In this document: positions 4,634 to 57,039 of the stretch, piece after piece
Position numbering within the stretch: position 1 is the first letter of the stretch
Layout of the letters: the number at the start of each line of letters is the position of its first letter
Source: Bacteroidota bacterium
GTDB lineage: Bacteria > Bacteroidota > Bacteroidia > 2-12-FULL-35-15
Assembly: GCA_029237775.1 (NCBI GenBank)
Contig: JAQZBR010000001.1
Coordinates: forward strand, 248,001-312,000
DNA: 64,000 nt
Reading direction: 5' to 3'
Position numbers and translations under genes: made by a program
Notes under the pieces: model-generated
What the model saw: only the letters and a program-made list of their open reading frames with translations
Told to the model about the DNA's origin: nothing
Database searches by the model: none

Positions 4634-5926
4634 CTATTTCATCGCAATATGTAGAGCCTCGGAAAAAGCTTTCGCTGTTATTATCAGATCGTCTTTTGTA
4701 TGTGCTTCGCAAATAAATCCTACTTCATAACCGGATGGGCCGAGGTATACACCACGCTCCAATAATTCTTTATGAAGTACACGAAAGTACTTCATCGATT
4801 CAGCGTCAATTTCTTCTGCCGACCGGATCTCTTTTTTATCCGTGAATGCAATCCAGAAAATAGAACCAATGGAAAAGAATTTAAGATTTGAAATTTCAGA
4901 TTTCAGATTCGAATAAATCTGTTCAATTAAAAATTTAGTTTTTGATTCGAGATCCTCGTAAAAGCCTTTTTTCAGACACTCCGTTAATTGTGCTATCCCG
5001 GCAGACATTGCAACAGGATTACCACTCAGAGTCCCTGCCTGATATACATTTCCTTCAGGTGATATGGAAGACATAATCTTGGCACTAGAACCATACATTC
5101 CAACCGGCAATCCACCACCGATTATTTTTCCATACGTGATGATATCCGGTTGAATCCTGTAATATCCTGCTGCACCCTCAAACCCGATCCGGAAACCGCT
5201 GATCACTTCGTCAAAAATTAAAAGAGTTTTGTTTTCAGTGCAAATCTCACGAAGGAATTGAAGATATTCCTTTCGTTGTAAAAGCAATCCATTATTAGCC
5301 GGGATCGGCTCAATGATAACACATGCTATCTGATCTTTGAACTCTGCAAAAGCCTGTTTCACCGCTTCTTCATTATTGAGGGATACAACTATTGTTTCAT
5401 TCACAAAGCTTTCAGGAACACCGGCCGAAGAGGTATTACCAAACGTAACCAAGCCGGAACCTGCTTTCACAAGCAGAGAATCACTATGTCCGTGATAACA
5501 GCCTTCAAATTTCAGGATCTTATTTCTGCCTGTATAACCACGCGCAAGCCTGATAGCACTCATCACAGCCTCGGTGCCGGAGCTTACAAAACGGATCTTC
5601 TCAACGTATTTATTATTGCTGAGGATCAGTTCTGCAAGTTCATTTTCCAATTGAGTCGGTGCCCCGAAGGAACTTCCGTTCTCAACTGTTGTTTTAATCG
5701 CGTTTACCACATTTGCATTTGCATGACCTAAAATCAATGGCCCCCAGGAACCGCAGAAATCGATAAATTCATTTTCATCAGCATCCCAGATGTGCGCACC
5801 TTTTCCTTTTTTAATGAATAATGGAGTTCCGCCTACGGAGCGAAATGCACGCACCGGACTGTTCACTCCACCGGGAAAATATTTTTTAGCTTTCTCAAAT
5901 AAAAGCTCTGATTTTTCTCTCTTCAT
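4634..5926 (-). CDS. hemL: Glutamate-1-semialdehyde 2,1-aminomutase
   Basis: The 430-residue PLP enzyme converts glutamate-1-semialdehyde to 5-aminolevulinate, the C5-route entry to tetrapyrroles. Visible signatures are PGGVNSPVRAFRSVGGTP at the N-terminus, FVSSGTEAVMSAIRLARGYT, the cofactor-aspartate region LLIFDEVISGFRIG, and the PLP-lysine region ITYGKIIGGGLPVG. The ATG at 5926 is chosen because the family starts just before this SELLFEKAKKYFPGG segment and a -7 promoter element lies 20-27 bases upstream. Residues about 338-349 (SNLKSEISNLKF) are low-complexity and encoded by a periodic AT-rich tract, which may be a repeat insertion. Confidence 0.95.
   Translation of the reverse strand: MKREKSELLFEKAKKYFPGGVNSPVRAFRSVGGTPLFIKKGKGAHIWDADENEFIDFCGSWGPLILGHANANVVNAIKTTVENGSSFGAPTQLENELAELILSNNKYVEKIRFVSSGTEAVMSAIRLARGYTGRNKILKFEGCYHGHSDSLLVKAGSGLVTFGNTSSAGVPESFVNETIVVSLNNEEAVKQAFAEFKDQIACVIIEPIPANNGLLLQRKEYLQFLREICTENKTLLIFDEVISGFRIGFEGAAGYYRIQPDIITYGKIIGGGLPVGMYGSSAKIMSSISPEGNVYQAGTLSGNPVAMSAGIAQLTECLKKGFYEDLESKTKFLIEQIYSNLKSEISNLKFFSIGSIFWIAFTDKKEIRSAEEIDAESMKYFRVLHKELLERGVYLGPSGYEVGFICEAHTKDDLIITAKAFSEALHIAMK
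4881..4913. repeat. Periodic AT-rich tract inside hemL
   Basis: The tract alternates GATTT, GAAATTTC and CAGATT units and is partly palindromic. It encodes SNLKSEISNLKF at a place where other aminomutases show a variable surface segment before the conserved GSIFW. The composition differs from the surrounding gene, so it could be an in-frame repeat insertion or just local low complexity. Confidence 0.35.
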
Positions 5927-5953: not shown

Positions 5954-6004
5954 TATCTTTGAAACCAATATTGCTCGCTGATACACAGAGTACTTTGCTG
6001 AATA

Positions 6005-6033
6005 TTTCTCGCAGAGGCGCAGAGAACGCTGAG
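6005..6033. repeat. Left inverted repeat of GxxExxY unit
   Basis: GC-rich purine-biased arm inside AT-rich intergenic DNA. Its 19-base core at 6011-6029 is the exact reverse complement of 6446-6464. Confidence 0.85.
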
Positions 6034-6054
6034 GCAATTATTTAGAAATGCTTT

Positions 6055-6435
6055 ATGAAAGAAAATGACGTTACAGGAATTTTAATTGATATATTCATCA
6101 AAATGCACTCGCAACTTGGCCCAGGTCTCCTCGAGAGCGTTTATGAAGAAATTATTTGTCATGAACTCAGGAAAAGAGAGATTAATTATAGCAGACAACA
6201 CGGAATTGCTGTCGTTTATGACGACATTAAAATGGATCTAGGATTCAGGGCAGATATTTTGGTTGAAGATAAAGTCATTGTAGAAATAAAATCGGTTGAG
6301 CAGCTTGCACCGGTGCATCACAAACAACTACTTACCTATCTTAAATTAACAGATAAAAAAGTTGGACTATTAGTAAATTTCAATGTTAGTCGAGTTAAAG
6401 ATGGCATCGTAAGGATCGTAAATAATTTTAGCTAG
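6055..6435 (+). CDS. GxxExxY family protein (PD-(D/E)XK-like)
   Basis: The 126-residue protein has the family motif as GLLESVY near residues 24-30. It also has a nuclease-fold signature, RADILVEDKVIVEIKS, giving the D...ExK pattern of PDDEXK_3-type proteins. No signal or membrane segment is present, so it is probably cytoplasmic. The family is widespread in environmental bacteria but has no established function. It sits alone between inverted repeats, with no obvious partner gene. It ends just before the right repeat, so transcription may read into kynU. Confidence 0.92.
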   Translation: MKENDVTGILIDIFIKMHSQLGPGLLESVYEEIICHELRKREINYSRQHGIAVVYDDIKMDLGFRADILVEDKVIVEIKSVEQLAPVHHKQLLTYLKLTDKKVGLLVNFNVSRVKDGIVRIVNNFS

Positions 6436-6441
6436 TCACAA

Positions 6442-6472
6442 CTCCGCGTTCTCTGCGCCTCTGCGTGAGAAA
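6442..6472. repeat. Right inverted repeat of GxxExxY unit
   Basis: Its core at 6446-6464 is the reverse complement of 6011-6029. The repeat lies only 28 bases before the kynU ATG, so it forms part of the kynU leader. Confidence 0.85.
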
Positions 6473-6500: not shown

Positions 6501-7769
6501 ATGGATTACAAGAATACATTAGAATTTGCCAAAGAGCAAGATGCGAATGACCCTTTGAAAACATTTCGCAACATGTTTTACTTTCCGATGATGAATGGTC
6601 GTGAAACAGTTTATTTCACCGGAAATTCTCTGGGCCTACAACCAAAAACAACCCAGGACTATGTGCTGAACGAATTGGAAGACTGGGCTACATTCGGGGT
6701 TGAAGGTCATTTCCATGCGCGCAAACCATGGCTCTCTTACCACGAACAGTTTGCCGAACCTGTTTCAAAAATTGTCGGTGCGCTTCCTGAGGAAGTAGTT
6801 GTGATGAATCAGCTTACTGTCAATCTGCATCTATTGTTGGTGAGCTTCTATCGCCCAACCAAACAACGATACAAGATCCTTTGTGAAGCAAAAGCTTTCC
6901 CTTCTGATCAATATGCGCTGGAATCACAGGTAAAGCTGCATAACCTGGATCCAAACGATGCAATCATAGAAGTTGCACCAAGGAGTGGTGAACATTGTAT
7001 TCGACATGAAGATATTCTTGAGGCGATTGAAAAGAATAAAGATTCCCTTGCTGTGATCATGATTGGAGGAGTGAACTACTACAACGGCCAGGTCTTCGAT
7101 ATGAAAGGCATAACAGAGGCAGGACATAAAGCAGGAGCTATTGTTGGATTTGATCTTGCACACGCTGCGGGAAATCTTAAAATGGAATTGCATAGCTGGG
7201 ATGTCGACTTCGCCTGCTGGTGCAGCTACAAATATTTAAACTCCGGTCCTGGTGGCGTCTCAGGTGTTTTCATCAACAAACGACACCTGAACAAACCAGA
7301 TATTATACGCTTCGCAGGTTGGTGGGGACATGATAAGGAAACCAGATTTAAAATGGAGAAAGGTTTTATTCCAATGCCAACCGCTGAAGCATGGCAGATG
7401 AGTAACGCGCCTGTACTCTCAATGGCCGCACATAAAGCTGCGGTTGATATCTTCACACAAGCGGGCATGGATGCGCTCGCAACAAAGACAGAAAAACTAA
7501 CAGGCTACCTTGAATTCGTAATTGATGAGATCAACAAAGCGCTTGATCAGAAGCTGGAGATCATAACACCCCGTGATAAAAAACAAAGAGGATGTCAATT
7601 ATCAATTGTCGCACACGGTCGCGGAAAAGACCTTTTCAATAAACTCATGCAGGCTGGAGTTGTCAGCGACTGGCGTGAACCAAATGTGATCCGTTGTGCC
7701 CCTGTTCCTTTGTATAACTCTTTTGAAGATGTGTATAGGTTTGGTGAGATATTGAAGGCTGCTCTGTAA
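6501..7769 (+). CDS. kynU: Kynureninase
   Basis: The 422-residue PLP enzyme cleaves 3-hydroxykynurenine or kynurenine to (3-hydroxy)anthranilate and alanine. Recognisable segments are VYFTGNSLGLQPK at the N-terminus, FHARKPWLSYHEQF, the PLP-aspartate loop VGFDLAHAAGN, the PLP-lysine motif CSYKYLNSGPGGVSG and FAGWWGHDKETRF. The ATG at 6501 is used; the ATG at 6465 lies within the inverted repeat and adds a lysine/arginine-rich non-homologous tail. KMO at 11462 and TDO at 42152 supply upstream steps from other transcription units. Confidence 0.95.
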   Translation: MDYKNTLEFAKEQDANDPLKTFRNMFYFPMMNGRETVYFTGNSLGLQPKTTQDYVLNELEDWATFGVEGHFHARKPWLSYHEQFAEPVSKIVGALPEEVVVMNQLTVNLHLLLVSFYRPTKQRYKILCEAKAFPSDQYALESQVKLHNLDPNDAIIEVAPRSGEHCIRHEDILEAIEKNKDSLAVIMIGGVNYYNGQVFDMKGITEAGHKAGAIVGFDLAHAAGNLKMELHSWDVDFACWCSYKYLNSGPGGVSGVFINKRHLNKPDIIRFAGWWGHDKETRFKMEKGFIPMPTAEAWQMSNAPVLSMAAHKAAVDIFTQAGMDALATKTEKLTGYLEFVIDEINKALDQKLEIITPRDKKQRGCQLSIVAHGRGKDLFNKLMQAGVVSDWREPNVIRCAPVPLYNSFEDVYRFGEILKAAL

Positions 7770-56568: not shown

Positions 56569-57039
56569 CTAAAAACCCGATCCGCTTAAAGGAACGCTTT
56601 TCACCATATCAACAGGATATTTTCTTTTCACCAGTAATTTCCCCACTTTAAGATCACCCTTCAATCCCACTTTTACATTACGGCTGGTTGCAAGCGACAT
56701 TAATCGCGGAAGATCCGCCATGCTTAAAGAAGAAAAATCAGATTTTATTTTAAACGTATACGACTCTTCAGAGTGCGGCTTGATCCTGATGTTGTTTGTC
56801 AGCTTCGCTTTCCCGGCATTCATCCCGTTGAGTGTAGCATCAAGATCCGAAGGATAAATATGAAAGGCCATTTTATTCGGATTGTCGATCCTCGCAGTGA
56901 TCTCCGCTTCTATTCCCTGCTGTGACATCTTAATGATCTTAACACCTTCCACCCCTTTAAAGCTGATATCCTGAAAATCACCACAGCTTGTAAAAAGTAT
57001 AAAGAAGAAGAAAATGGAGATGAGAATAACTTTTTTCAT
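56569..57039 (-). CDS. LEA type 2 (WHy-like) lipoprotein
   Basis: The 156-residue lipoprotein has a lipobox (FFFILFTSCGDFQ). A LEA2/WHy-type beta-sandwich follows (GIEAEITARIDNPNKMAFHI, LDATLNGMNAGKAKL, SEESYTFKIKSDFSSLS). LEA2 domains are known from desiccation-linked proteins of plants and from bacterial envelope lipoproteins. The stop codon abuts the stop of the convergent metallopeptidase gene. Confidence 0.83.
   Translation of the reverse strand: MKKVILISIFFFFILFTSCGDFQDISFKGVEGVKIIKMSQQGIEAEITARIDNPNKMAFHIYPSDLDATLNGMNAGKAKLTNNIRIKPHSEESYTFKIKSDFSSLSMADLPRLMSLATSRNVKVGLKGDLKVGKLLVKRKYPVDMVKSVPLSGSGF

Follow-up and report, generated by a model that had tools for sequence, protein, structure and literature searches.

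The window, by which we mean the whole 64-kb stretch of DNA that was analysed, carries between hemL and kynU a compact unit made up of one GxxExxY gene and two inverted arms (Table 1). As the original prediction had it, the gene stands alone between its repeats and separates the two neighbouring genes. The arms are 27 nt each, inverted and 93% complementary, and follow the pattern CGCAGAG-n-CGCAGAG-nn-CGCNGAG, that is, one 7-bp word written three times. They had been described as 19-bp perfect inverted repeats; the inversion stands, while the perfect core measures 20 bp and the single repeat resolves into iterated words at fixed spacing. With 67–71% GC, compared with 34% for the interior of the unit and 40% for the whole window, the arms are indeed GC-rich sequences in an AT-rich setting. 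Apart from its two arm sites the core is absent from the 64-kb window at up to three mismatches (0.14 expected), and the window has no inward word triples other than these two arms. The unit begins shortly downstream of TATCTTTG, a match to TAnnTTTG, which we take to be the Bacteroidota promoter box. Since this box lies just ahead of it, the unit is probably located in the 5' leader of kynU; the promoter role of TATCTTTG is presumed from general knowledge.

Table 1. Features of the GxxExxY unit and its surroundings (positions in the window).
Feature	Position	Strand	Remarks
hemL, left neighbour	4634..5926	-	start at about 5926; syntenic across the genus
TATCTTTG	5954..5961	+	conserved genus-wide at the empty site (comparison of hemL-kynU intergenic regions)
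Whole unit	about 6005-6470		one gene and two inverted arms
Left arm	6007..6033	+	CGCAGAG-G-CGCAGAG-AA-CGCTGAG, with TCT prefix
Word copies of the left arm	6010-6016, 6018-6024, 6027-6033	+	7-bp words; start spacings 8 and 9
Perfect arm core, CGCAGAGGCGCAGAGAACGC	6010-6029 / 6446-6465	both arms	20 bp
GxxExxY gene	6055..6435	+	126-aa ORF; PD-(D/E)XK nuclease fold (profile matches, predicted structure)
Right arm	6442..6468	-	CGCAGAG-G-CGCAGAG-AA-CGCGGAG; left arm inverted
kynU, right neighbour	6501..7769	+	ATG at 6501; syntenic across the genus

The product of the gene matches TIGR04256 (GxxExxY; E 2e-41, 140.9 bits, cut-off 35) and PF13366 (PDDEXK_3; E 6e-40, 136.8 bits, cut-off 22). Its G24-L-L-E27-S-V-Y30 motif does not vary in the family alignment (A3), and E27, Y30, D67, E77, K79, Q91 and Y95, all present in the window protein, are invariant or nearly so across the family. 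The catalytic D67 and E77/K79 (ExK) are intact, and Q91 and Y95 make up a QxxxY motif. An AlphaFold model was obtained with a pLDDT of 95; its top Foldseek matches in the PDB were Cas4 SSO0001, LHK-Exo and lambda exonuclease, at modest E-values of 1.6e-3 to 7e-3, and structure comparison of the model (VIA) gave a Z of 9.0 to 4ic1 over 104 residues. None of the solved structures searched had a sequence relationship to the window protein. The PD-(D/E)XK pattern noticed at the outset is thus borne out by the PF13366 match, by D67, E77 and K79 and by the predicted fold. By its confidently predicted fold the window protein is a nuclease of the RecB/Cas4/lambda-exonuclease type with intact catalytic residues; cleavage of DNA by it is an inference. 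It shares with Cas4, RecB and lambda exonuclease the fold and the motif order E...D...ExK...QxxxY, but is only 126 aa long, has repeat arms of its own and has no CRISPR or recombination partner genes alongside. It contains a single cysteine and so lacks the iron-sulfur cluster set of Cas4.

Genes of the family were found in 38 of the 41 genomes searched, with up to 20 matches in one genome. The genome of the window holds seven, with several different arm sequences among them, and inverted repeats lie directly outside the ORF in most of them. In phage records the window protein has no relative at E<=1e-5; plasmid relatives are few, each with less than 60% identity.

Flanking arms are a general property of GxxExxY genes. 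For 92 loci that could be used, taken from 41 related genomes, the left flank was aligned with the reverse-complemented right flank, and a score of at least 22 was required. Inverted repeats were present at 76 of these loci, and in only 1 of 178 controls in which the same cut was moved by 750 bp (p=8e-37); about 17% of the loci have no clear arm pair. Of 400 sliding positions across the window one reached the threshold, and a control ORF (56571-57039) scored 23, yet it lacks the word arrays. Among 77 further loci, drawn separately from many phyla, 53 were flanked on either side by inward word arrays, compared with 0 of 147 shifted controls; outward-oriented arrays were seen at 17 of the 77. 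The prediction would have fallen had GxxExxY genes generally lacked inverted repeats, and both sets speak otherwise. Chance as the origin of the repeats is rejected, the shifted, sliding-position and other-ORF controls rendering it highly improbable.

The words are of the C-R-C-N-R-A-K type (CGCAGAG, CGCAAAG, CACAGAG, CACTAAG, CACAGAT, CGCTGAT and others) and are set in discrete spacing formats, e.g. 8-9-10, 9-10, 8-8, 9-12-10 and 10-11-10. Both arms of a locus have the same spacing in 90 of 106 cases (shuffled mean 35), and the outer word is identical between the two arms at 44 of 63 loci (17 on shuffling). One universal core around every GxxExxY gene is ruled out, word and spacing differing by protein subfamily; of the expectation that the same inverted core would flank many such loci, the general presence of arms survives and the sameness of the core does not.

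The word follows the protein and not the host. Taking a full match at the three variable word positions as agreement, in 81% of cases a locus agreed with the one whose protein, taken from a different genome, was nearest to its own; agreement was 15% between loci of one genome and 19% with random loci. When the words are placed on the protein tree, their final letter (position 7) changes 5 times, as against 26.7 when shuffled, and position 5 changes 13 times as against 46. Among pairs of proteins that are 60-70% identical, identity amounts to 73% at the variable word positions, 33% at fourfold sites and 29-30% in the flanks; at 70-90% protein identity the word positions reach 85%, compared with 56% for random pairs. 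Over the full 60-90% range fourfold sites (33-38%) and flanks (29-36%) remain near random. As judged from these alignments, the match between word and protein is more than simple co-inheritance of flanking DNA, since fourfold sites and flanks have diverged while the word positions have stayed alike. Close relatives of the window protein, in whose arms CGCARAG-type words are commonest, occur in Bacteroidota, Cyanobacteriota, Planctomycetota, Acidobacteriota, Verrucomicrobiota and other phyla, which are interleaved in the tree; some host labels (e.g. Bifidobacterium breve, Akkermansia) belong to metagenome bins and may be wrong. A search by mutual information for the residues that specify the word pointed to 7-12, 87-94 and 113-117, though phylogenetically independent pairs were too few for a decision.

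Arms also occur without a gene. Their counts beyond the loci rest on exact pattern searches in 36 congeners, in which reversed patterns, used as control, gave zero matches. Of the 36 congeners, 7 have CGCAGAG arrays, with at most 18 copies, and 19 have CACTAAG arrays, with at most 26. Many of the CACTAAG copies are gene-less inverted pairs of 70-140 bp with the form TTTACCACTAAG...CTTAGTGGTAAA; relatives also contain dispersed solo arms. These solo and gene-less paired arms are MITE-like relatives of the units. Arms outside the loci are more numerous in genomes that hold a CACTAAG unit than in those without one (p=0.002); in some genomes (G189, G009) a word is represented by many arms although its cognate gene was not detected. 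The original prediction would also have been refuted by repeats occurring genome-wide with no preference for GxxExxY genes. This is not what was seen, as the arms track the GxxExxY protein; the prediction is thus supported on both conditions, with the amendment that solo and gene-less paired arms lie elsewhere in genomes as well.

It might be supposed that the arms belong to a different, unlinked transposase for which GxxExxY is mere cargo, a reading encouraged by the MITE-like look of the gene-less pairs and by those genomes in which arms lack a cognate gene. It is highly improbable in our judgement: GxxExxY is the sole gene between the arms, and across phyla it is this protein that the word tracks.

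Several individual loci illustrate the variety of these forms. In the genome of the window there are solo window-type arms (G000:C5:559318-559356 and C5:81454; L010, L011) with no adjacent GxxExxY gene, and one of its GxxExxY genes (L006, G000:C3:468683-469018) is a decayed copy broken by a TGA stop. Of the 77 multi-phylum genes, 8 (about 10%) contain a stop. In congener G189, which lacks a close relative of the window protein (53% identity at best), arms of both kinds are more numerous than anywhere else in the genus; one of its intergenic regions holds alternating tandem CACTAAG and CGCAGAG arms (L362, G189:C16:67500-68000), and at another site a CACAGAT inverted pair is nested within a CACTAAG paired-arm element (L361, G189:C47:6200-6700), as if one word family had inserted in another. 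In three further genomes the left arm and the 5' end of the gene are present in tandem copies (L363 in G195, L364 in G007, L228 in G018), as if arms were hot spots of local re-copying or break repair.

Throughout the genus hemL and kynU lie side by side in divergent orientation, which allowed the insertion site to be compared. It had been proposed to look for empty sites here in close relatives, and two have one: the intergenic distance is 58 bp in congener G010 and 62 bp in G016, compared with 573 bp in the window, 582 bp in G003 and 663 bp in G018, each of the latter with a full unit. Presence and absence at an orthologous site, a general criterion for mobile elements, is met in this way. 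Congener G195 also has a full unit, both arms of which are in tandem copies, those of the right arm taking in the 5' end and start of kynU (L363, G195:C6:47800-51700), and in G023 an internal deletion has spared just the two arms and the gene's end. The unit shared by G003, G018 and G195 has the look of vertical inheritance, which implies that movement there is infrequent. No target-site duplication could be read either at hemL-kynU or at a gene-less element in G002, the intergenic DNA being too diverged.

Other relatives have short arrays of different words at this site. According to species these are CACGGAG, CACTAAG or CGCGAAG arrays or hairpins (L229, L231-L233, L239, L245, L246, L252), and because different species hold different ones the hemL-kynU intergenic region is a hot spot. 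An unrelated ORF was found between hemL and kynU at L250/L251. On the opposite side of kynU, G005 has a GxxExxY unit (L365, G005:C362:34400-36700) that is 69% identical and whose words are CGCAAAG, possibly an independent insertion next to that gene. The varied arrays in this region, the small nuclease gene and its patchy spread could also be reconciled with a defence or addiction gene, a nuclease islet that came by happenstance to lie at repeat-rich intergenic sites; we give this proposal very little weight, for it leaves the match of word and spacing to protein subfamily unexplained.

A more serious alternative is that the protein recognises its arms without moving them. The arms would then be operators, or sites at which the nuclease stops or loads as RecBCD does at Chi, serving self-regulation or DNA processing; selection for binding would keep them in place, and they would have spread just by ordinary recombination and horizontal transfer. 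Binding alone suffices for the word-protein match and for conservation of the arms, and the RecB-like fold and the co-orientation of units with their neighbours sit well with it. A selfish element better accommodates the gene-less pairs and solo arms far from any GxxExxY gene, presence and absence at one site, the several units with different words in a genome, and the broken genes of the multi-phylum set. On balance we consider recognition without mobility unlikely, though it cannot be set aside.

The orientation of the units is strongly biased, 108 being in the same direction as the neighbouring genes and 9 opposite. The likeliest reason is that the units depend on read-through expression; such a bias is not something demanded of a freely moving DNA element, and it counts against one. 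It is also the main point in favour of an element acting at the level of RNA, akin to the intervening sequences (IVS) of 23S rRNA, in which the arms would base-pair within the transcript, the ORF would be freed or silenced by a stem of the RNase III type, and the word pattern would simply mirror RNA pairing. The agreement of unit orientation with both neighbours and the location of the window unit in a probable kynU leader suit this proposal, and IVS elements also have a small ORF inside a terminal stem (PMC4990558). Pairing in RNA should leave its mark on substitutions between the arms; the transitions comprise 48 of the wobble type and 74 of the non-wobble type, so that retention of G-U is not favoured and the direction is the wrong one. 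This disfavours an RNA hairpin as the main constraint on the arms. Single solo arms and the matching of the word to a protein with a DNA-nuclease fold are likewise at odds with it, and we regard an RNA-level element as improbable.

In layout the 23S rRNA IVS is nonetheless the nearest known system, with a small ORF (S23, PF05635), a length of about 430 nt and terminal inverted repeats; that of Coxiella has tandem heptamers (GACAGAT) beside the S23 ORF (PMC4990558). The IVS is defined by its location in rRNA and its S23 protein. The window unit, intergenic between hemL and kynU and coding for a PDDEXK_3 protein, fits neither; GxxExxY units are intergenic, belong to another family, use another alphabet of words and bear no sign of selection for RNA pairing. 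Genes for PF05635 four-helix-bundle proteins of the S23/IVS type are also found outside rRNA (G000 L020-L025; L116-L145), where short words of the GGCTACT, AAGTATC, TTAGCTA and CAGGTT types often form inverted arrays on their two sides. They occur in 116 of 148 genomes of the phylum, and 16 of 36 such loci scored above the 95% null for flanking inverted repeats. As these genes, too, lie between iterated-word inverted repeats, the architecture may represent a wider class.

Among DNA elements the closest parallel is REP/REPIN-RAYT, likewise composed of one small gene with short flanking inverted repeats, accompanied by many gene-less intergenic repeats, single or in inverted pairs, with subfamily-specific sequence. 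RAYT (TnpA_REP) is an HUH Y1 transposase acting with REP hairpins, whereas the GxxExxY unit has a PD-(D/E)XK nuclease and arrays of 7-bp words that are not foldback palindromes; of the defining features, gene-less single and paired repeats are present and an HUH Y1 transposase is not, the sole gene being PDDEXK_3. With IS elements and MITEs the units have in common terminal inverted repeats, autonomous and gene-less forms and empty sites, but there is no DDE, HUH, serine or tyrosine recombinase, the arms are iterated and target duplication is unreadable. The window unit accordingly does not qualify as a classical IS, which requires a DDE, HUH, serine or tyrosine transposase between terminal inverted repeats. 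By this comparison the GxxExxY unit would work like a REP-RAYT or IS-MITE pair and fit neither definition, because its only protein is a PD-(D/E)XK nuclease. Free-standing homing endonucleases are also small intergenic nuclease genes of patchy distribution; in the GxxExxY unit, unlike these, the recognition words lie on both flanks, travel with the gene and are not interrupted by it.

The reading that we favour, and hold to be reasonably probable, treats the window unit as a selfish DNA element pared down to the minimum. Its nuclease would recognise its own arms and probably nick or cut them, cleavage as well as transposition being inferred. A RecB/Cas4-type nuclease would read its own 7-bp word, each subfamily having its own word and spacing, and would probably nick or cut at the arms. 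Repair or copying after the cut may then spread the unit, gene-less pairs and tandem arms into intergenic DNA, and the gene would probably be expressed from the promoter of a neighbour, in the window that of kynU. The analysis establishes the match of word to protein, the symmetry of the arms, presence and absence at an orthologous site, gene-less and solo arms, tandem arm copies and broken genes, the intact catalytic residues and the predicted fold; DNA binding, cleavage, mobilisation in cis or in trans and the protection or spread of the repeats by the protein are all inferences. Against the favoured reading stand the unreadable target duplication, the seemingly vertical descent of the unit in G003, G018 and G195, the arms without a detected cognate gene, the co-orientation with neighbours and the loci that have no clear arm pair.

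That the word changes with the enzyme and not with the host, across phyla, suggests that the unit belongs to a very small type of selfish DNA not described so far. In the open-access papers that were found the GxxExxY name occurs without a function and without repeats, and neither such units nor the word sequences were found described in the open literature, subscription papers and preprints lying outside the search. More tentatively, with the evidence falling somewhat short of a preference, GxxExxY units could constitute a new class of mobile DNA in which a solitary RecB/Cas4-type nuclease of about 126 aa reads the 7-bp word of its subfamily, at fixed spacing, in its own arms and mobilises itself and gene-less pairs, the S23 four-helix-bundle genes forming a parallel class with a different word alphabet.

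The matched word arms make the orphan GxxExxY family a testable system, and with several natural protein-word pairs per genome its recognition code is readable. If the nuclease alone mobilises the unit, this would be a new mobilisation chemistry contained within about 450-600 bp; if true, it would also account for the scattered repeats of the CGCAGAG, CACTAAG and CACAGAT types in these genomes.
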